From positions 1 to 47,061 of the forward strand of contig NZ_SJPW01000013.1 in NCBI RefSeq assembly GCF_007860125.1: a stretch of DNA of 47,061 nucleotides, given 5' to 3'. This DNA comes from Rubripirellula tenax. GTDB taxonomy: Bacteria; Planctomycetota; Planctomycetia; Pirellulales; Pirellulaceae. Both the position numbers and the translations under genes were made by a program. Below, piece after piece: positions 6,424 through 20,550 of this stretch. Position 1 is the first letter of the stretch. Each line of letters starts with the position of its first letter. The notes under the pieces were generated by a model, which did no database searches, had not been told where the DNA came from, and saw only the letters and a program-made list of their open reading frames with translations.

Positions 6424-6787
6424 GACTGACTCCGCAGATGTTCCGCGTGTTTGCTTGCACAAACGATTGCTGCAACGCTTGGTTTTAGGTGCGTCTTTTG
6501 GCTCTTGCGTTAGTTGCTCGCCGATTCAAACGCCTTAATCCTTCGTTGGCGATTTGCAGAGCCCACGCCGCTCGCATTCCTTGATAGTGTTCACTGTTGT
6601 CGTTTGCTGAACCAGCGTGAACGTTTTCGATCCTTCGTTTACCGTCTGCTGGGCCCGTTGGATGCAATGCCCGTTTACTTGCCGACCCGATCAACGCCCA
6701 ATTGCTTGCCGCCCGAACCAATGCCCGTTAAGCTGTGGCGACGTGGTCGTGACTGCCCGGCACTCGATCAACGCCCGTCCATAATAC
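6424..6787 (+). repeat. ORF-less cassette, paralogue B
   Basis: Diverged copy of 5497-5862 separated from it by one other cassette. It starts right after the GTTATCG box with the same GACTGACTCC word as paralogue A, so the similarity begins at the cassette border. Confidence 0.7.
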
Positions 6788-13228: not shown

Positions 13229-13750
13229 ATGTCCTTGAACATCAACAAAGAAGTCCGTGCGATGGAAAAACGATCCGTTCGCGAACTTCGCAAACAGTAC
13301 GCCGACGTGTTCGGCGAAGGCACGAATGCATCGAACAAGCCTTGGCTGATCAAGCGGATCGCTTGGCGGATGCAGTCGAACATCGAGGGCGACATTTCGC
13401 AGCGCGCTCGAGATCGAGCAGGCGAGATTGCCAACGATGCCGACGTTCGGATGACGCCGCCGCCGGAAGGTTCGTCGGCTGGCGCGGCAACCGCGACGTT
13501 GAGGCCGGCTCGAAGCGGCGAGCGAACCAAGACGGTGAAGGTCTGCATGCCGGTCGACGATCGTTTGCCACCGCCGGGCACAACGCTGACTCGAAAATAC
13601 AAGGGTCAGATGTATCAAGTGACGGTCTTGCCGGTCGGGTTTGACTTCGATGGCGAGGTCTACAAATCGCTGACGGCGGTCGCGAAAGCGATCACGGGCC
13701 AGCACTGCAATGGATTCACCTTCTTCAAACTCGGGAAGCCACAACAATGA
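13229..13750 (+). CDS. DUF2924 protein
   Basis: A 173-residue protein from ATG 13229 with GGAGGG upstream. [19 protein letters not shown] and [14 protein letters not shown] at the N-terminus, then a linker and [19 protein letters not shown] with [20 protein letters not shown] at the C-terminus, give the typical DUF2924 layout. These proteins almost always sit directly before a serine recombinase, as here, where the stop overlaps its ATG (ATGA). They are thought to bind DNA or assist the recombinase, but no activity is established. The protein looks intact although its partner recombinase is broken. Confidence 0.85.
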
Positions 13751-14931
13751 AGCGAAACGAAAACAAGACGATCCGTTGTGCGATCTACACTCGGAAGTCG
13801 ACCGAAGAAGGGCTTGAGCAAGAATTCAATTCGCTCGACGCCCAACGCGAATCCGGTGAAGCCTACATCGCCAGCCAGATGCACGAAGGTTGGACGTGCG
13901 TGCCGACGCGGTACGACGACGGCGGGTACACCGGCGGCAACATGGACCGGCCGGCGTTGAAGCAACTGATGGCGGACATCGAGGCCGGCAAGATCGACTG
14001 CGTTGTTGTCTACAAGGTGGACCGGCTCAGTCGATCCTTGCTGGACTTTTCTCGGATGATGGAAAAGTTCGATAACGCCGGCGTGTCGTTCGTGTCGGTG
14101 ACGCAGCAGTTCAACACGACTTGCAGCATGGGACGGTTGACGCTGAACATCCTGCTTTCGTTCGCACAATTTGAACGCGAGATCATTTCCGAACGGACTC
14201 GGGACAAGATCGCGGCTTCACGTCGGAAGGGAAAATGGTCCGGCGGCATGCCGCTGCTTGGCTACGGCGTCGATGCCGACACTTCAAAGTTGGTCGTCGA
14301 TCCGGACGAGGCGAAACGTGTTCGGGCAATCTTTGACCTCAGTAATTTTCTCGCAAAGCCGAGGGTGGTTGAGGACGACGAGCCTGCCCCGGAGCCGCCT
14401 CCCGTCGTCGTTGATCCGGGCGTCCTTCCTGATCGTTTGCTTCGCGTGCCCGGCTTCGTCAACGAGGTCATGGACCATTGCCTCGACACAGCACCGTACC
14501 CGAACCCGGTGATGGCGTTCTGCGGAGCGTTGTCGCTGCTGGCCATGCTCGCCGGCCGCCGCGTGCGTGACCCCGGCGACAACCGCACGAACCTCTATCT
14601 GCTGCCCGAACCCGTACCTCCAGTGTGGCCCGACGACTATCCGCCCGGCACGCCCGACCCCGGCCCGCGACCGCCCTGGTGGCCCGACGATGCGATCTGG
14701 CCGCCGCAACCGGAAACACCGGGCGTCATTGAGGTTCCGCCGTCACCACACATTTGGCCGCGACTGCCGCCCGACCATCCCTACCACGTCCCACCCGGCT
14801 ACTCCGCGCCCGACAACCTGCCACCCGGTCACCCCGGCGAGTCTTATCCAGGCATGCCCGACTACCCCGTCGTTCACCCCGGCGACTGGGGCGATGACTG
14901 GCCGAGCTATCCCGGCTTGTACGACGATTGA
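13747..14931 (+). CDS. In-frame chimera: serine recombinase catalytic domain, DUF3987-like piece, proline-rich tail
   Basis: A 394-residue frame made of three unrelated parts. Residues 1-197 are a large serine recombinase catalytic domain: [19 protein letters not shown] with the nucleophile Ser, YKVDRLSRS, and [11 protein letters not shown]. It stops where the recombinase DNA-binding part should begin. Residues about 200-283 ([19 protein letters not shown], then RKVRD-like [16 protein letters not shown]) look like the start of a DUF3987 primase/helicase-type protein, cut before its Walker A. The last about 108 residues are a Pro/Asp/Trp/Tyr-rich tail (PPGTPDP, PPWWPDD), as on some phage structural proteins. 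The frame stays open across both joins. Without the DNA-binding domain it is unlikely to recombine DNA. Confidence 0.75.
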
Positions 14932-16126: not shown

Positions 16127-16198
16127 GGGCTGGTAGCTGAGACGGTCTAGCGGCGGTCTGAAGAACCGCAGACGAGGATTCGAGCGCCTCCCGGCCCA
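16127..16198 (+). tRNA. tRNA-Phe(GAA)
   Basis: Acceptor GGGCTGG/CCGGCCC, anticodon stem GCGGT/ACCGC, loop CTGAAGA, discriminator A. First gene of the array. CCA is not encoded here or in any tRNA of the array. Confidence 0.9.
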
Positions 16199-16255
16199 CT
16201 GACAAGGAAGATATGCGCCGACAGCAACGGCTGCGGCGATCGAAGCAAAACAACA

Positions 16256-16330
16256 TCGGATACAGGCGCAGATGGAAGCACGCCTGCTTTGGGAGCAGGA
16301 GGGTCTCGGTTCGACTCCGAGGTGTCCGAC
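16256..16330 (+). tRNA. tRNA-Pro(TGG)
   Basis: Acceptor TCGGATA/TGTCCGA, anticodon stem CCTGC/GCAGG, loop TTTGGGA. T-arm CTCGG/CCGAG is intact. Confidence 0.85.
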
Positions 16331-16348
16331 TTTTTGAAACGACAACAT

Positions 16349-16420
16349 GGTAGTCGAGGGCTGGTCGCCCAAATCCGCCTGATACGCGGGTCGCGCTGAG
16401 TTCGATCCTCGGGGCTACCA
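16349..16420 (+). tRNA. tRNA-Ile(GAT)
   Basis: Acceptor GGTAGTC/GGCTACC, D stem GGGC/GCCC, anticodon loop CTGATAC, T stem CTGAG/CTCGG, discriminator A. Confidence 0.8.
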
Positions 16421-16509
16421 CTTGAAGTAGGTCACAGGTTTCAGGTCACAGGGATCAGGTAAACGAATCATGCAGACACTTTTGAAACGCATAGCCGCGA
16501 TTGAACATC

Positions 16510-16606
16510 GGGGCTGTGGTGTAACTGGCAGCATGTCGGGCTTCGGGCACCGACGCAGGACGCGTTGGTCGTCGTGTAGGTGAGAGTTCGATCCTCTCCG
16601 GCCCCA
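16510..16606 (+). tRNA. Irregular 97-nt tRNA, isotype undetermined
   Basis: Acceptor GGGGCTG/CGGCCCC and T-arm GAGAG/CTCTC are good. The anticodon stem GTCGG/CCGAC encloses ten bases (GCTTCGGGCA) instead of seven, and about 27 bases lie before the T-arm, including a hairpin ACGC/GCGT. If the A of the loop is bulged, the anticodon would be TCG (Arg). It may be inactive or have a special role. Confidence 0.55.
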
Positions 16607-16617
16607 TCGCTACACAT

Positions 16618-16690
16618 CGGCGTGTAGCTCAGGGGTAAGAGCGGCGTCCTTATAAGGCGACGGTCGCGGGTTCAATTCCCGCCACGCCGA
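16618..16690 (+). tRNA. tRNA-Ile(TAT), probable
   Basis: Acceptor CGGCGTG/CACGCCG, D stem GCTC/GAGC, loop CTTATAA giving TAT, T stem GCGGG/CCCGC. The outermost anticodon-stem pair is G-A. Confidence 0.75.
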
Positions 16691-16714
16691 CTGAAACGAA
16701 ACAACGACGACAGA

Positions 16715-16789
16715 TGGGATTGTGGCAGACAAGGTAATGCATCGGACTCTTAATCCGAGCGATGTGAGTTCGATTCTCACCGATCCCAC
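16715..16789 (+). tRNA. tRNA-Lys(CTT)
   Basis: Acceptor TGGGATT/GATCCCA, anticodon stem TCGGA/TCCGA, loop CTCTTAA, T stem GTGAG/CTCAC. Confidence 0.85.
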
Positions 16790-16807
16790 TTGAGAACTTT
16801 TGAAACA

Positions 16808-16881
16808 AGCACTGATGGTCTAACGGCAAGACTCCTCCGTCGCGAGCGGGGTGATGCGGGTTCGATTCCGGCTCGGTGCTC
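16808..16881 (+). tRNA. tRNA, isotype uncertain (GCG or CGC)
   Basis: Acceptor AGCACTG/CGGTGCT and D stem GGTC/GACT are clear. By spacing the anticodon stem is CTCCG/CGGGG with loop TCGCGAG (GCG, Arg, but C at position 33). A one-base shift keeps T33 and gives CGC (Ala) with a worse stem. The T stem has one mismatch. Confidence 0.55.
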
Positions 16882-16934
16882 TTGAGACGCTTCGGCGTTA
16901 TTGATCTTTGACAATTTGGTAGTGATGCATTTTT

Positions 16935-17005
16935 GCGCCCATGGTGTAGTGGTAACCCATCTGCTTGCCATGCAGGAAATGCGAGTTCGATTCTCGCTGG
17001 GCGCT
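16935..17005 (+). tRNA. tRNA-Gly(GCC)
   Basis: Acceptor GCGCCCA/TGGGCGC, anticodon loop TTGCCAT, T stem GCGAG/CTCGC, discriminator T. Confidence 0.9.
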
Positions 17006-17013
17006 TTGCAAAA

Positions 17014-17085
17014 TCCGGTGTGGCCCAATGGTAAGGCGGCTCCCTGTTAAGGAGACGAGTGATGGTACGAGTCCATCCGCCGGAG
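17014..17085 (+). tRNA. tRNA-Asn(GTT)
   Basis: Acceptor TCCGGTG/CGCCGGA, anticodon stem CTCC/GGAG, loop CTGTTAA, discriminator G. Confidence 0.9.
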
Positions 17086-17107
17086 CTCTTGTTTTTTCAG
17101 TAAACAC

Positions 17108-17179
17108 GTGTCCTTGGCCGATCGGCTAAGGCGTCGGACTTCCAATCCGAGCAGGCGGGTTCGATTCCCGCAGGACACT
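17108..17179 (+). tRNA. tRNA-Gly(TCC)
   Basis: Acceptor GTGTCCT/AGGACAC, anticodon stem TCGGA/TCCGA, loop CTTCCAA, T stem GCGGG/CCCGC. Confidence 0.9.
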
Positions 17180-17203
17180 CTTCCGAGATGCTCACGATGT
17201 CAC

Positions 17204-17275
17204 TCGGGTGTCGGCTAACGGTAAGCCAGCTGCCTTTGAAGCAGTGGTATGTAGGTTCGATTCCTTCCGCCCGTG
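17204..17275 (+). tRNA. tRNA-Gln(TTG)
   Basis: Acceptor TCGGGTG/CGCCCGT with an open first pair, D stem GGCT/AGCC, loop CTTTGAA, discriminator G. Confidence 0.85.
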
Positions 17276-17295
17276 CTGTTGATGAAAGACCAAAC

Positions 17296-17370
17296 GCCGG
17301 AGTAGCAGTTGTTGGTCGCTGCACCTCGCTCTGAACGAGGAGTTCATTGGTTCGATTCCAGTCTCCGGTG
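17296..17370 (+). tRNA. tRNA-Gln(CTG)
   Basis: Acceptor GCCGGAG/CTCCGGT, D stem GCAG/CTGC, anticodon stem CCTCG/CGAGG, loop CTCTGAA. The next tRNA begins two bases later. Confidence 0.9.
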
Positions 17371-17372
17371 CT

Positions 17373-17446
17373 GTGGCCGTCCTGTATTGGTTTCAGGAAC
17401 TTCGCTGTGAACGAAGTCCATGTCGGTTCAATTCCGATCGGTCACC
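17373..17446 (+). tRNA. tRNA-His(GTG)
   Basis: Acceptor GTGGCCG/CGGTCAC, D stem TCCTG/CAGGA, loop CTGTGAA, discrimin ator C as usual for His. The base before position 1 is T, so G-1 is not encoded. Confidence 0.9.
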
Positions 17447-17463
17447 CTCGCGTGAACATTTTC

Positions 17464-17536
17464 GGTGGCAATTTCCTCTGGGAAGGAAGCTTGATTGTCT
17501 ATCAAGTCGTTGCGGGTTCGACTCCCGTTGCCATCG
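17464..17536 (+). tRNA. tRNA-Asp(GTC)
   Basis: Acceptor GGTGGCA/TGCCATC, anticodon stem CTTGA/TCAAG, loop TTGTCTA, T stem GCGGG/CCCGT, discriminator G. Confidence 0.9.
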
Positions 17537-17543
17537 CTTTCAA

Positions 17544-17615
17544 GCCGCATTCGACTACTGGCTAGGTCGGCTGCTTCTCAGGCAGCAGGAAGGAGATCGA
17601 AACTCCTATGCGGTA
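17544..17615 (+). tRNA. tRNA-Glu(CTC)
   Basis: Acceptor GCCGCAT/ATGCGGT, anticodon stem GCTGC/GCAGC, loop TTCTCAG. T stem AGGAG/CTCCT with an unusual loop ATCGAAA. Confidence 0.8.
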
Positions 17616-17640
17616 CTCGCTTCGATCGAAGCAACAAAAC

Positions 17641-17715
17641 GGCGTGGTAGATTCTGTTGGCAGAATCGTCTGGTTTTCATCCAGGAGTCCGCGGGTTCGA
17701 TTCCTGCTCACGTCA
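17641..17715 (+). tRNA. tRNA-Glu(TTC)
   Basis: Acceptor GGCGTGG/TCACGTC with three G-T pairs, D stem GATTC/GAATC, anticodon stem TCTGG/CCAGG, loop TTTTCAT. Confidence 0.85.
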
Positions 17716-17735
17716 CTGCGTTCAATAACGCAGTA

Positions 17736-17821
17736 CGGAAGTCACCCGGCCGGATGAGGACACTGTTTTGAAAACAGCTGCGGTAAAAAACCGTTGTGGG
17801 TTCGAGTCCCACGGCTTCCGC
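17736..17821 (+). tRNA. tRNA-Ser(TGA)
   Basis: Acceptor CGGAAGT/GCTTCCG, loop TTTGAAA, long variable arm CGG...CCG as expected for Ser, T stem GTGGG/CCCAC. Confidence 0.9.
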
Positions 17822-17837
17822 TTGTTTGATGAAATCT

Positions 17838-17924
17838 TGGGAGCGTTTCCACACGGGAGACTGTAAATCTTCTGCCTTTAATTGTGTGGTAGTCGGCGAG
17901 AGGTGCGATTCCTTGCGTTCCCAC
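17838..17924 (+). tRNA. tRNA-Tyr(GTA)
   Basis: Acceptor TGGGAGC/GTTCCCA, anticodon stem GGAGA/TCTTC, loop CTGTAAA, long variable region as expected for bacterial Tyr. The D arm is very short. Confidence 0.8.
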
Positions 17925-17943
17925 TTGTTTTGAAAACTTTCAC

Positions 17944-18014
17944 ACGTCTCTGGTGTAACGGTAGCACTGCTGATTCCAAACCAGTTAGTCAGGGTTCAAA
18001 TCCTTGGGGACGTG
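17944..18014 (+). tRNA. tRNA-Trp(CCA)
   Basis: Acceptor ACGTCTC/GGGACGT, loop TTCCAAA, T stem CAGGG/CCTTG, discriminator G. One A-C mismatch closes the anticodon stem. Confidence 0.85.
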
Positions 18015-18033
18015 CTCTTCGGATCGACAACAT

Positions 18034-18105
18034 GGTCCTGTGGTCCAACGGCGACGACACCTGTTTTACACGCAGGACACGATGGTTCGATTCCATCCGG
18101 GACTA
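18034..18105 (+). tRNA. tRNA-Val(TAC)
   Basis: Acceptor GGTCCTG/CGGGACT, anticodon stem CCTGT/GCAGG, loop TTTACAC, T stem GATGG/CCATC, discriminator A. Confidence 0.9.
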
Positions 18106-18155
18106 CTGCTGGCGTCACGGTGACGCTGGCCCGCACCTAACGAAGGAGAACGACG

Positions 18156-18425
18156 ATGTCCAGAAATGTGAAGTACGTGCAATGTGCGATGAGACGCAAC
18201 ATCGTCGGCGGATCCGTGCGAACGACATCGTACATCCCTCAAGAGTTTGCGAAAGTCGGCCGCGTGCTGAGGCTAAAAGACGACAACGTCGGCTGGGTCG
18301 ATGGCTGGGTGGTCGAGTGCGTCGGTGACGCGATCGTCGAAGGCGACCAAATTCCTGACTCGCACAAGGCGATTAAGAACCATCGCAAGTCGACCGGCGA
18401 CAGTACTCCGCGACTGCATGCATAA
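18156..18425 (+). CDS. Small phage-type protein inside the tRNA array
   Basis: An 89-residue protein from ATG 18156 with AAGGAG at good distance. The pattern KYVQCAMRRN...TTSYIPQEFAKVGRVLRLKDDN followed by GWVVECVG (quoted in parts) resembles a small protein family of phages and phage-like elements that I recall. It is basic at the start and acidic at the end, with no membrane segment. It lies between tRNA-Val and a Leu-like tRNA, in the same direction, and is followed by a perfect 12-bp hairpin. Genes inside a tRNA array are a sign of phage origin. Function unknown. Confidence 0.65.
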   Translation: MSRNVKYVQCAMRRNIVGGSVRTTSYIPQEFAKVGRVLRLKDDNVGWVDGWVVECVGDAIVEGDQIPDSHKAIKNHRKSTGDSTPRLHA

Positions 18426-18440
18426 CACGTTGGCAGCCAA

Positions 18441-18470
18441 GGGAAGGACGCGGTCGGTCGCGTCCTTCCC
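18441..18470 (+). terminator. Perfect 12-bp hairpin after the small phage-type gene
   Basis: GGGAAGGACGCG and CGCGTCCTTCCC pair perfectly around GTCGGT. There is no T run, so it may be a processing or stability element rather than a classic terminator. Confidence 0.6.
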
Positions 18471-18489
18471 AACGGCACCAGCGATCAAC

Positions 18490-18563
18490 GCCTAGATACG
18501 CCAACCGGCCGAGCGGCTCGCCTTTAATCCGAGTGTTTGCAGGTTCGACTCCTGCTCTGGGCA
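18490..18563 (+). tRNA. tRNA-Leu-like, anticodon TTA by position (or TAA if shifted)
   Basis: Acceptor GCCTAGA/TCTGGGC, T stem GCAGG/CCTGC, and D region TACGC..ACCGGC like the Leu(CAA) gene nearby. The anticodon stem CTCGC/CCGAG has a C-C closing pair around loop CTTTAAT, which gives TTA (would read the stop codon UAA). A one-base shift gives TAA (Leu). Variable loop only five bases. Confidence 0.6.
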
Positions 18564-18649
18564 CTAGCAGAAGTTTGAAGAGTGAAGTTTGAAACATCCG
18601 ACGCGAACCATTTTCACCATTAACCCTTCACTCCTCTAACTTCATTCAT

Positions 18650-18720
18650 GGGGCGCTCGTCCAACGGGAAGACGTCTGTTTTGCACGCAGAAAATCGGGG
18701 TTCGATTCCCCGGTGCTCCA
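18650..18720 (+). tRNA. tRNA-Ala(TGC)
   Basis: Acceptor GGGGCGC/GTGCTCC includes the G3-T70 wobble typical of Ala; loop TTTGCAC, T stem CGGGG/CCCCG, discriminator A. Confidence 0.9.
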
Positions 18721-18732
18721 CTTTTCACAATC

Positions 18733-18804
18733 GCTGAGGTAGGCCAACGGCGAGCCGCTTGTCTTAGGAACAAGTGCTTGCGGGTTCGACTCCCGCCCTC
18801 AGTA
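18733..18804 (+). tRNA. tRNA-Leu(TAG) with short variable loop
   Basis: Acceptor GCTGAGG/CCTCAGT, anticodon stem CTTGT/ACAAG, loop CTTAGGA, T stem GCGGG/CCCGC. The variable loop is TGCTT, without the long arm usual for bacterial Leu. Confidence 0.8.
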
Positions 18805-18816
18805 CTGATTCAACAT

Positions 18817-18890
18817 GCTGTGGTACGCAAACCGGCAAAGCGGCGAATTTCAAACGTTCGTGTTTGAGGGTTCGACTCCCTCCCGCAGTA
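18817..18890 (+). tRNA. tRNA-Leu(CAA) with short variable loop
   Basis: Acceptor GCTGTGG/CCGCAGT, anticodon stem CGAAT/GTTCG, loop TTCAAAC, T stem GAGGG/CCCTC. Variable loop TGTTT is again short. Confidence 0.8.
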
Positions 18891-18956
18891 TTTGACGAGT
18901 CTTGAGTCGCGAGGACAAGCTCAGGACTCATCGCTCAAGACTCACATCTCCAACGA

Positions 18957-19024
18957 TGCGGGTGAGCCAGGCTCAGCCGGGCCTCATAAGCCTGGACCGT
19001 CGGGTGCGACCCCCGAACCCGCTA
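18957..19024 (+). tRNA. tRNA-Met(CAT)
   Basis: Acceptor TGCGGGT/ACCCGCT with an open T-T first pair (an open first pair is an initiator trait), anticodon stem CGGGC/GCCTG, loop CTCATAA, T stem TCGGG/CCCGA with loop TGCGACC. Only 68 nt. Initiator, elongator or Ile2 identity is not settled. Confidence 0.75.
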
Positions 19025-19114
19025 CTGAAATAGCTGTTAGCAAATGGCGTTTAGCTGTTAGCCCAGACTGAAGAAGCTAATCGCTAAACGCCAATAGCTA
19101 ATCGCTTCTTCAAC

Positions 19115-19187
19115 GATCGCGTGGTCCAGCGGCGAAGACGGCTGCGTGACAAGCAGGAGGCCGATGGTTCGATTCCATCCGTGATGT
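19115..19187 (+). tRNA. tRNA-Val(GAC)
   Basis: Acceptor GATCGCG/CGTGATG with an open first pair, anticodon stem CTGC/GCAG, loop GTGACAA, T stem GATGG/CCATC. Confidence 0.75.
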
Positions 19188-19200
19188 GCTTTTCAATGAT

Positions 19201-19271
19201 GGTCTGTAAGTGTTGCGGCAGCACGCGTCTGTGGTATGGACGAAGACCGGGTTCAATTCCCGGACGGACCT
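19201..19271 (+). tRNA. tRNA-Thr(GGT)
   Basis: Acceptor GGTCTGT/ACGGACC, D stem GTG/CAC, anticodon stem CGTCT/GGACG, loop GTGGTAT, T stem CCGGG/CCCGG. Confidence 0.85.
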
Positions 19272-19288
19272 CTCGCAATTCTCGTTTA

Positions 19289-19376
19289 CGGAAGGCAGCC
19301 GGATACGGTTTGCCGGGCCGCACCGCTAACGCGTGCCACCTTCGGGTGATGTGGGTTCGACTCCCTCGCCTTCCGC
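19289..19376 (+). tRNA. tRNA-Ser(GCT), anticodon placement uncertain
   Basis: Acceptor CGGAAGG/CCTTCCG and discriminator C match the Ser(TGA) gene of this array, and there is a long variable arm CACC...GGTG. The anticodon stem GCAC/GTGC encloses CGCTAACGC, so GCT is likely, but the loop is two bases too long. Confidence 0.65.
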
Positions 19377-19389
19377 TTGTTAACGAAAC

Positions 19390-19461
19390 GGCTCGATGGT
19401 GAAACGGACATCATCTCTGGCTTCTAACCAGAAGTTCCGGGTTCGATTCCTGGTCGGGCTA
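19390..19461 (+). tRNA. tRNA-Arg(TCT)
   Basis: Acceptor GGCTCGA/TCGGGCT, anticodon stem TCTGG/CCAGA, loop CTTCTAA, T stem CCGGG/CCTGG. Confidence 0.9.
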
Positions 19462-19479
19462 CTGATGCGAACAAAGCCA

Positions 19480-19553
19480 GCCGACGTGGCTCGATGTAGA
19501 AAGGCAACGCTCTTGTAAAGCGACCCATGCTGGTGCGAACCCAGTCGTCGGCT
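19480..19553 (+). tRNA. tRNA-Thr(TGT)
   Basis: Acceptor GCCGACG/CGTCGGC, anticodon stem CGCT/AGCG, loop CTTGTAA, T stem GCTGG/CCAGT with loop TGCGAAC. Confidence 0.85.
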
Positions 19554-19578
19554 CTTGTGACTAGGTAGTCAACCAAAT

Positions 19579-19650
19579 GACTCGCGGGTGTGCTGGACAG
19601 CATGGCAGTCTTCGAAACTGTCGGACCAGGTTCGATTCCTGGGCGGGTTA
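19579..19650 (+). tRNA. tRNA-Arg(TCG)
   Basis: Acceptor GACTCGC/GCGGGTT, anticodon stem GCAGT/ACTGT, loop CTTCGAA, T stem CCAGG/CCTGG. Confidence 0.85.
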
Positions 19651-19658
19651 CTCAAAAT

Positions 19659-19731
19659 GTTCTCGGAGTGTGCCGGACTAGCACGCGACTTTGCGAAGGT
19701 CGTAGACCAGGTTCGATTCCTGGCGAGAGCA
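19659..19731 (+). tRNA. tRNA-Arg(GCG)
   Basis: Acceptor GTTCTCG/CGAGAGC, D stem GTGT/GCAC, anticodon stem CGACT/GGTCG, loop TTGCGAA, T stem CCAGG/CCTGG. Confidence 0.9.
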
Positions 19732-19772
19732 CTTGTTGTTGAAGATCGAAACCTCAAACACGGAGCAGACCG

Positions 19773-19992
19773 ATGCGATACGAACACGACGACGAGCGAT
19801 ATGACGAAGCCCACTGCTTTCGAGCCGATGAGTAAACGCCGCCGCGGCTACCCGTCCGAAACGAAAGTCAAACACGGAGTCCGAATCATCCAAGGCAAGC
19901 TGCTCGAGGAAAAGCTCGGTCGCAACGACCTATGCCCATGCGGCAGCGGTCAGCGGTTCAAACGTTGTTGCCTGCGATCGGGCCGTCTGTGA
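19773..19992 (+). CDS. SEC-C motif protein with overlapping 20-codon leader
   Basis: The SEC-C frame ends at 19992 and carries [20 protein letters not shown], the classic zinc-binding SEC-C signature, near its C-terminus. Start candidates are ATG 19801 and ATG 19829. A second frame from ATG 19773, with GGAG nine bases upstream, encodes [20 protein letters not shown] and stops at 19835. That stop lies across the ATG at 19829, so it could be a coupled leader peptide, or the N-terminus of one longer gene split by a frameshift. Small SEC-C proteins like this are, as I recall, typical passengers of planctomycete tRNA arrays. SEC-C domains bind zinc, and proteins or ribosomes in other contexts; the role here is unknown. 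Confidence 0.7.
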
Positions 19993-20042
19993 TGGCGTCA
20001 ATCGCGACGACTACTTTTAGAGACGATGACTGAACGACACAC

Positions 20043-20063
20043 GCTCGCGGCAATCCCGCGAGC
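20043..20063 (+). other. Perfect 8-bp hairpin after the SEC-C gene
   Basis: GCTCGCGG pairs with CCGCGAGC around CAATC. It lies six bases before tRNA-Cys and could guide processing. Confidence 0.6.
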
Positions 20064-20068
20064 AACAA

Positions 20069-20139
20069 AACGCTGGAGCCAGATGGCTAGGCGGCCGGCT
20101 GCAACCCGGTTCAAGTGGGTTCGACTCCCACCAGCGTTT
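20069..20139 (+). tRNA. tRNA-Cys(GCA)
   Basis: Acceptor AACGCTG/CAGCGTT, D stem GCC/GGC, anticodon stem GCCGG/CCGGT, loop CTGCAAC, discriminator T as expected for Cys. Last conventionally ordered tRNA of the array. Confidence 0.9.
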
Positions 20140-20149
20140 CTGACAGATC

Positions 20150-20206
20150 GACTGCAGACTCGGATTACATCTTGAAAATGTGAAACATCTGAGTTGTCCC
20201 TTCGTC
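20150..20206 (+). ncRNA. RNA module copy 1, without tRNA
   Basis: GACTGC (20150), then ACTCGGAT (20158-20165) pairing with ATCTGAGT (20187-20194), TACAT directly after the first strand, and CTTCGTC at 20200-20206. The same order of elements occurs in the next two modules. The interior is a short ACAT/ATGT hairpin instead of a tRNA. Confidence 0.65.
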
Positions 20207-20231
20207 GATCCGTCTTCAACCAAATCACGGC

Positions 20232-20355
20232 GACTGCCGGTTCGGACTACATGGTGAGAGCGCGTCGCGATGCGACGAGGTCGCGGGTTCAAGTCCCGCC
20301 AGCGGACAAATGTTCGCGAGTAGCTCAGTAAACAACGTCTGACCAAATCTTCGTC
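20232..20355 (+). ncRNA. RNA module copy 2 with permuted tRNA (opened in the D loop)
   Basis: Module parts: GACTGCC, helix GGTT(C)GGAC/GTCTGACC (20239-20247 with 20337-20344), TACA, and CTTCGTC at 20349. Inside, the 3' part of a tRNA comes first: D loop end TGGTGA, GAGC, anticodon arm, T arm GCGGG/CCCGC, then GCGGACA. The 5' part TGTTCGC...TAGCTCAGT (20311-20329) follows. GCGGACA and TGTTCGC pair as an acceptor hairpin. Joining AGT to TGGTGA restores a normal D loop with GCTC/GAGC. By standard numbering the anticodon is GAT, but position 33 is C. The fit between acceptor and T arm is irregular. Confidence 0.65.
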
Positions 20356-20372
20356 GCCAACCGTTCACGATT

Positions 20373-20496
20373 GACTGCCTGATTGGACTACATCACCTCG
20401 ACTGTCGTGGGTTCGAGTCCCACCGAAGCGAACCTCGCGTTCGCTTCGTAGCTCAGTTGGTAGAGCATCGAATTTGTCTGATCGACCCACTTCGTC
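20373..20496 (+). ncRNA. RNA module copy 3 with permuted tRNA (opened in the anticodon loop)
   Basis: Module parts: GACTGCC, helix GATTGGAC/GTCTGATC (20381-20388 with 20476-20483), TACA, and CTTCGTC at 20490. Inside, the 3' half comes first: anticodon stem CTCGA, variable loop, T arm GTGGG/CCCAC, acceptor CGAAGCG. After the loop CTCGC comes the 5' half GTTCGCTTCG, TA, D arm GCTC/GAGC with loop AGTTGGTA, and TCGAA. The acceptor halves form a perfect 10-bp hairpin. TCGA pairs TCGA across the break. The anticodon depends on the unknown joining point; joining TTTG to CAC would give TGC (Ala). Confidence 0.7.
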
Positions 20497-20550
20497 AATC
20501 GCGTTTTCCCTCGCGGACTCGCCAACGCAGTTCGGTGGACACGTACGCCG

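Follow-up and report, generated by a model that had tools for sequence, protein, structure and literature searches.

Probable YrlA-type Y RNAs with tRNA-like modules at the end of a planctomycete tRNA array

In the permuted tRNA genes of algae and of an archaeon, the 3' half comes first and the 5' half second, an acceptor hairpin stands between them, and the outer ends are joined, so that a tRNA is made. Another RNA with which the present locus can be compared is bacterial YrlA. PMC8394870 and PMC7790460 describe YrlA as a basal stem, bound by Rsr, to which a mimic of three tRNA arms (D, T and acceptor) is attached. In the same papers, it is linked to PNPase within RYPER and, in certain bacteria, encoded alongside rsr and rtcBA.

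The stretch analyzed here, designated 'the window', is an entire contig of 47,061 bases (C13) of an 8.0 Mb genome (G000). Just behind a tRNA array, it holds two elements which the initial annotation described as permuted tRNA genes. We consider it most likely that both are Ro-protein-binding Y RNAs, and not tRNA genes. With a probability of about 0.93, both belong to the YrlA kind of Y RNA and act unjoined; together with a YrlB-like unit that precedes them, they make up the three units at the end of the array. What could have been the first bacterial permuted tRNA gene would thereby be explained away.

Three units behind the tRNA array

The predicted features of this part of the window are the following:

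16127..20140, + strand: tRNA array, 29 ARAGORN calls, 22 of them above the Rfam tRNA cut-off
20069..20140, + strand: tRNA-Cys(GCA), final gene of the array (ARAGORN), 5 bases 5' of the YrlB-like unit
20146..20210, + strand: YrlB-like Y RNA, stem GATCGAC/GTCGATC, GGATTACAT motif, short hairpin
20229..20358, + strand: YrlA-like Y RNA 1 ('unit 1'), stem GGCGAC/GTCGCC, inserted in the D loop of a tRNA-like module
20368..20501, + strand: YrlA-like Y RNA 2 ('unit 2'), stem CGATTGAC/GTCAATCG and second helix, the stem inserted in the anticodon stem
20368..20393, + strand: 5' strand of the Ro-type stem of unit 2, CGATTGAC TGCC TGATT GGAC TACAT, with covariation across units
20407..20466, + strand: tRNA-like module of unit 2 (T arm, acceptor-stem hairpin, D arm)
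20476..20501, + strand: 3' strand of the Ro-type stem of unit 2, GTCTGATCGACCCACTTC GTCAATCG, with covariation across units

The arms and the order in which the initial annotation had placed them, with a 3' tRNA part ahead of a 5' part in both copies, are correct, and this shape is conserved. In unit 2, the T arm GTGGG-TTCGAGT-CCCAC is followed by CGAAGCGAAC, the loop CTCGC and GTTCGCTTCG, whose 10 bp are present in the predicted fold; the D arm TAGCTCAGTTGGTAGAGC comes after this acceptor hairpin, and TCG(A) and (T)CGA stand at the outer ends of the halves. The 'anticodon stem' that these ends were said to form has only 3 to 4 bp. In unit 1, the T arm GCGGG/CCCGC, the strands GCGGACA and TGTTCGC (6 of 7 pairs in the predicted fold) and the break in the D loop were all recovered, and a GC hairpin without an anticodon loop stands where an anticodon arm would be expected. 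What had been overlooked lies outside the described halves: CGATTGAC pairs with GTCAATCG, and GGCGAC with GTCGCC.

The further claim that the transcripts are opened and closed into tRNAs is not supported: at the outer ends there is a stem like that of Y RNAs, and both window copies lack a normal anticodon loop of 7 nt. Run in linear mode, ARAGORN called no tRNA in the two window copies. Among the tRNA-like cargos enclosed by such stems, it called 66 of 108 after virtual rejoining and 0 of 118 unaltered; both window units are among the 66, with at least one of the trims tried. The anticodons that it assigned to the rejoined window units (gat, taken from the GC hairpin, and tc, tta and tt, once each) are not credible. 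A complete anticodon arm with U33 is absent from these rejoined units, which have the 3 to 4 bp stub or the GC hairpin instead. The Ro60-like gene that lies beside such units in relatives also speaks against a need for joining, as does the description of YrlA as a basal stem with a tRNA-arm mimic in PMC8394870.

A default Rfam scan of the window yielded no Y-RNA call, because none of the three matches located there reaches its curated cut-off; they are found in permissive mode. Unit 2 then matched YrlA over all 114 positions (20368-20504; 48.9 bits, E 4.2e-10, below the gathering value of 69), unit 1 matched YrlA weakly (20251-20363; 17.3 bits, E 0.58), and the short unit matched YrlB (20150-20216; 22.9 bits, E 0.029, below the gathering value of 97). 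A permissive scan of five sister loci gave ten YrlA matches of 26.8 to 52 bits, nine of them full length and 0 above the cut-off. The GAC-TGCC / TTC-GTC junction aligns with the YrlA consensus, and two traits that characterize YrlA are present: a conserved stem made of the 5' and 3' ends, which in YrlA is the Ro site, and a T/acceptor/D-arm module.

A covariance model, R1, was derived from 30 Planctomycetota units. It scored 116.5 bits on unit 2, which is itself a row of the training set, 52.3 bits (E 2e-10) on unit 1, which is absent from it, and 32.2 bits (E 1.7e-5) on the YrlB-like unit. The same model scored 61.4 bits on a Rhizobium etli plasmid RNA (L301:6757-6866), which with 98.4 bits is itself above the Rfam cut-off for YrlA, and 86 bits on the neighbor of this RNA. 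A model is thus shared with an accepted YrlA, and since R1 finds the R. etli YrlA, the planctomycete units are tied to accepted Y RNAs. Weak R1 matches (E <= 0.001, in 177 of 392 genomes) include ordinary neighboring tRNAs, such as window 18737-18881 at 36.5 bits; for this reason only matches of at least 64 bits were counted, a line that was set after viewing the list. As for folding energy, the z value was -2.81 for the YrlB-like unit, -2.72 for unit 2 and -1.24 for unit 1, for which 21 of 200 shuffles folded equally well.

The genome has three tRNA arrays, on C4, C13 (the window) and C9. More tRNA genes exist beyond the window array, which is redundant. The C4 array is accompanied by five scanner units (see below) and a full-length ro gene; that of the window has three units, and no ro gene was found on its contig. 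The window and C4 stretches are 92% identical. A copy of unit 1 is included in this stretch on C4, and the differences between the two copies of unit 2, compared by eye, mostly preserve pairing in the stem and acceptor. For another C4 unit (L250:6301-6448), 35 of 200 shuffles fold equally well and the predicted structure deviates from the consensus. Ro protein for the window units would have to be supplied from C4, or else the window copy would be decaying.

Several observations concern the arrays themselves. Beside the third array (G000:C9:8598-10873), a 139-codon ro fragment covering profile positions 2-140 lies on the opposite strand. Several tRNAs differ between the C4 and window arrays, as called by ARAGORN. 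Within the window array are an 89-residue protein matching phrog_25356 and a 54-residue SEC-C motif protein (18156-18422 and 19828-19989), as well as a tRNA with a TTA anticodon that ARAGORN names 'Stop' (18490-18564). On its 5' side (13229-14928), genes for a DUF2924 protein and a resolvase/integrase-type recombinase suggest a mobile element.

Recurrence, covariation and the Ro protein

A BLAST search with 20210-20500 gave matches over most of the query in C4 and in four genomes of the same genus (G021, G018, G011 and G004). A script describing the succession of T arm, acceptor 3' strand, loop, acceptor 5' strand and D arm retrieved similar units, amid chance hits, in many of 20 loci. The recurring units share the flanks NNNNGAC-TGCC-NNNNN-GGAN-TACAT (5') and N'TCTGRYCA-NN-ACTTC-GTCNNNN (3'). 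A scanner based on these flanks, and blind to the cargo, detected 100 units in 30 stretches (362,688 bases), compared to a single one when an equal amount of reversed sequence was scanned as a control; the YrlB-like unit of the window is among the units that it reports. Over the loci supplied to it next, it returned 200 distinct units, some of them false since many of these loci were chance pattern hits: 119 were tRNA-like (with a T loop), 46 short, 17 carried a 23S motif and 18 were of other content. The named records with matching loci belong to Planctomycetota, for example Neorhodopirellula pilleata and Rubripirellula obstinata. In several relatives too, tRNA-Cys adjoins such a unit (for example L250, L251, L254, L262 and L270-L273, from ARAGORN and the scanner).

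Thirty tRNA-like units were aligned, out of 39 available that had been chosen by their T-loop and D-arm motifs. Over 37 named pairs, 93.9% of the cells were standard pairs, and 22 of the 37 pairs had changes on both sides; 0 of 500 shuffles were as high, and slid versions also fell far short. The scanner demands at least five pairs of the outermost helix and favors the closing base of the second helix; it does not demand pairs in the T stem, acceptor or anticodon stem. Nor does it impose pairing at the two positions that follow the closing base in the second helix, where standard pairs were present in 184 and at least 179 of the 200 units. The closing-base combinations were GGAG-CTCT (124 units), GGAC-GTCT (43), GGAT-ATCT (13) and GGAA-TTCT (7). 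The outer ends pair in every cargo class, units free of tRNA parts included, although this pairing is partly a search criterion. Because of the covariation and of the unselected pairs of the second helix, we conclude that the outer ends pair with each other and are not ends awaiting joining. The covariation across related genomes also opposes the possibility, raised in the initial annotation, that the fragments are remains of two ordinary tRNAs.

The Ro family domain TROVE (PF05731) was matched in 24 of 99 genomes, G000 among them, and above the cut-off in 20 of the 24. The G000 protein (563 residues, encoded on C4) is above the Pfam cut-offs for both TROVE and vWA_Ro60, and failed that of the NCBIfam Rsr equivalog (78.3 of 900 bits); it is a divergent Ro-like protein, not classed as an Rsr equivalog. 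Its AF2 model (pLDDT 77.9, pTM 0.75) was compared with PDB, and all 12 matches at E <= 0.001 are Ro60, Rsr or TROVE structures (2nvo, E 4.5e-16).

Among 392 genomes of the phylum, 39 had a Ro match at E < 1e-150 and 38 had a unit of at least 64 bits with R1. Both were present in 34 genomes, in 31 of which they lie on one contig, at most about 3 kb apart. Strong units were thus found in 34 of the 39 Ro-bearing genomes, compared to 4 of the 353 others, counts in which related genomes are not independent. The five genomes with Ro and no 64-bit unit are G188 (59 bits), G287 (49 bits), G107, G360 and G297; the four with a unit and no strong Ro match are G402, G285, G349 and G455, the last having a weak one. 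In 29 stretches picked by TROVE hits or flank patterns (L250-L278), all had a Ro-like open reading frame, and 24 had scanner units, with ro located downstream of them. Of the other five, L264, L265 and L275 gained units with R1, and L258, which has a canonical-type Ro, gained none; the fifth, L269, starts 62 bases before its reading frame. Co-encoding of Ro60/Rsr with the units is therefore observed in relatives and on C4.

On plasmids of Methylosinus, R. etli and R. leguminosarum, a Ro protein about 40% identical to the planctomycete one is encoded after rtcR. In Methylosinus and R. leguminosarum, RtcB follows after a gap of 0.7 to 0.8 kb, in which YrlA matches are located; in R. etli, the YrlA RNAs come directly after the TROVE gene, and the gene at the place of RtcB is annotated as hypothetical. 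Ro-like genes are also present in 349 phage records; a blastn search of phage records with unit 2 gave no match. In Myxococcus phage Mx1 (L303, 5001-6650), such a gene lies amid phage tRNA genes, and its product shares 37% identity with the planctomycete Ro protein. Three IMG/VR contigs listed as viral (L212 11851-12113, L210 3935-5362 and L207 10827-10957) carry Y-RNA-like sequences scoring 46 to 125 bits with R1.

Modules enclosed by the stem

Unit-bearing loci hold 2 to 8 scanner units, and 22 of the 29 stretches have 1 to 32 ARAGORN tRNAs, the other 7 having none. In the tRNA mimics, the stem enters at the anticodon stem, as in unit 2, or at the D loop, as in unit 1; a unit of the D-loop type is also present in R. 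etli, as read by eye. A third placement leaves a minihelix of T arm and acceptor (for example L250:6071-6188, fold z -3.85). In several modules, a hairpin remains whose loop could pass for an anticodon loop (CAT, TCT, TCC, CTT and, in the L250 unit that begins at 6448, CAG).

Other units contain an anticodon-arm-like hairpin alone (L130, L095, L022, L132, L270, L278, L131 and others). This was the case for 16 of 38 short units of 14 to 44 bases, compared to 1.1 expected from shuffles; a separate count dropped eight loci as false. Their anticodons were GTT (5), GTG (2), GTC (2), GTA (1), GCG (2) and four others once each. Ten of the 16 are thus GUN anticodons, those of Asn, His, Asp and Tyr, the queuosine set. 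In L095, the only such unit that was folded, the hairpin is missing from the minimum-energy structure.

A last class resembles 23S rRNA, in a region that we take to be helices 69-71, with the Ro-type stem in the loop or 5' strand of helix 69 (L272:6460-6642, L081:134-350, L048:543-719, L111:6174-6352 and others). The module starts with GACGGTCCTAAGGTAGCGA in many units and with CGTAACTATGACGGTCCTAAGGTAGCGA in L272 and L081, compared to CCTAACTATGAGGGTCCTAAGGTAGCGA in the 23S rRNA of G000. Among 22 such cargos, chosen by a GGTAGC-type motif and including one false unit (L100:6-197), the heads of 20 matched the G000 23S better than the best of 20 shuffles (the exceptions being L100 and L155), at a place that was partly preset by the selection. 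The tails did so in 3 of the 22, with none landing on the 5' strand of helix 69 and no significant match there. The case for mimicry is therefore built on the head, together with complementation of the helix, since the cargo's 3' end can provide the second strand of a helix-69-like stem. Twelve of the 22 cargos were aligned as A3 and seven others as A4; in the RNAalifold consensus of A3, three of the five helix-69-like pairs (columns 35-39 with 147-151) had changed on both sides. The minimum-energy fold of L048:543-719 keeps the outer stem and lacks the helix-69-like one. Rfam matched no family in four 23S-like units of the five loci scanned. The commonest 23S-type start pattern was found in 5 of the 392 genomes with up to 2 mismatches allowed. 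A 23S-type pattern gave 0 exact matches in IMG/VR. No rRNA-like or anticodon-arm Y RNA was found in print in a literature check that was partial and weak.

Proposed function, alternatives and known systems

The 5' and 3' ends of each RNA pair into a two-helix stem, which by analogy with YrlA would be the site for the Ro60/Rsr ring, and the loop of this stem carries a module that folds as a permuted tRNA. The order would be permuted on account of where the stem enters the tRNA shape: it takes the place of part of the anticodon arm in 20368-20501 and lies within the D loop in 20229-20358. Such an RNA would function unaltered, with neither circularization nor a mature tRNA. Most likely, again by analogy, Ro and the module would tether or steer a PNPase-like exoribonuclease, or other tRNA-handling enzymes, toward structured RNA. 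The variety of modules fits several Ro-guided decay specificities, or else a role as decoys for tRNA- and rRNA-cleaving or -modifying enzymes. A broader and more speculative reading, which we propose tentatively, is that of a Ro-linked library of Y RNAs, where one stem is grafted into mimics of translation RNAs (two or more sites in tRNA, anticodon arms of the GUN type, minihelices of acceptor and T arm, 23S helix 69-71) and is accompanied by a spare set of tRNAs; such a library may bait or block the enzymes by which translation RNAs are cut or modified, or give Ro-guided decay several specificities.

Functional permuted tRNA genes, processed in the red-algal manner, in which the outer ends are joined while RNase P, together with a 3' nuclease, opens the acceptor loop, would account for the permuted order, for the ARAGORN calls in rejoined cargos, both window units included, for the plausible anticodon loops of some relatives, and for the presence of RtcB in all 14 planctomycete genomes examined. 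We regard this as very improbable, given that the same stem encloses short hairpins and 23S-like pieces, that the ends pair in all cargo classes, and that implausible anticodons, an Rfam YrlA match and a ro neighbor all speak against it. A self-processing or RtcB-closed circular pre-tRNA was rejected, as the flanks pair mutually and enclose non-tRNA cargo as well, and as permissive Rfam scanning gave YrlA; so was a small ribozyme in the flanks, none having appeared in permissive Rfam scans of part of the window and five loci. Equally improbable is that the elements are functionless broken remains of two tandem tRNAs. Their position at the end of the array, the window copy without ro and the folding of unit 1, which barely surpasses shuffles, would agree with decay, but cross-genome covariation, conserved flanks outside the tRNA parts, a C4 copy in which pairing is mostly preserved and the adjacency of ro in other families argue against it.

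A different question is what the elements do if they are Y RNAs. Instead of steering PNPase, they may be mimics tied to Ro and offered as decoys or baits to RNA-cleaving or RNA-modifying enzymes, a possibility that we hold to be real, though less probable than not. The excess of anticodon-arm hairpins with a majority of GUN anticodons, the modules resembling helix 69 of 23S, the adjoining spare array and the Ro-like genes of phages point in this direction. In PMC7790460, competitive inhibition of an anticodon nuclease is put forward as one possibility for the YrlA module, whereas YrlA itself is reported to be no substrate, which goes against a bait. No nuclease or nuclease gene was identified, the window units have no anticodon loop, and L095 folds without its hairpin. 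Under either function, the elements remain Y RNAs, and the results suggest that the effector modules of Y RNAs extend beyond the tRNA mimic to rRNA-like and anticodon-arm-like versions, located beside spare tRNAs. The targets of bacterial Ro-Y RNA particles thereby become a directly testable question.

Compared with the permuted tRNA genes of algae and of an archaeon, the units have in common the 3' half placed before the 5' half and the acceptor hairpin between them, and they differ in their outer ends, which here form a conserved Y-RNA-type stem. They resemble the rsr-yrlBA-rtcBA RNA repair operon, as given in PMC7790460, in that a Ro gene goes with YrlB and YrlA; unlike in this operon, rtcB lies away from ro in 13 of 14 planctomycete genomes (in G039, it is about 0.6 kb distant). 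The short unit at 20146-20210 is like YrlB (RF02565) by its GGAUUACAU motif, with a weak match (E 0.029), whereas in L270 and L271 the unit at the same place behind tRNA-Cys holds an anticodon-arm-like hairpin. With YrlA (RF02553), the units share a basal stem of the kind that serves Rsr/Ro60, the permuted tRNA-like module and, in relatives, an adjoining TROVE gene. They depart from it in scoring below the curated cut-off, in being clustered (2 to 8 scanner units), in often following a tRNA array rather than sitting in an rtcBA operon, and in having modules that include anticodon hairpins, a D-loop insertion, minihelices and 23S-like pieces. The kind of RNA is therefore already known, YrlA being a described tRNA mimic; what is apparently new is that planctomycetes have as many as eight Y RNAs clustered next to ro and a redundant tRNA array, with the stem grafted at various places.
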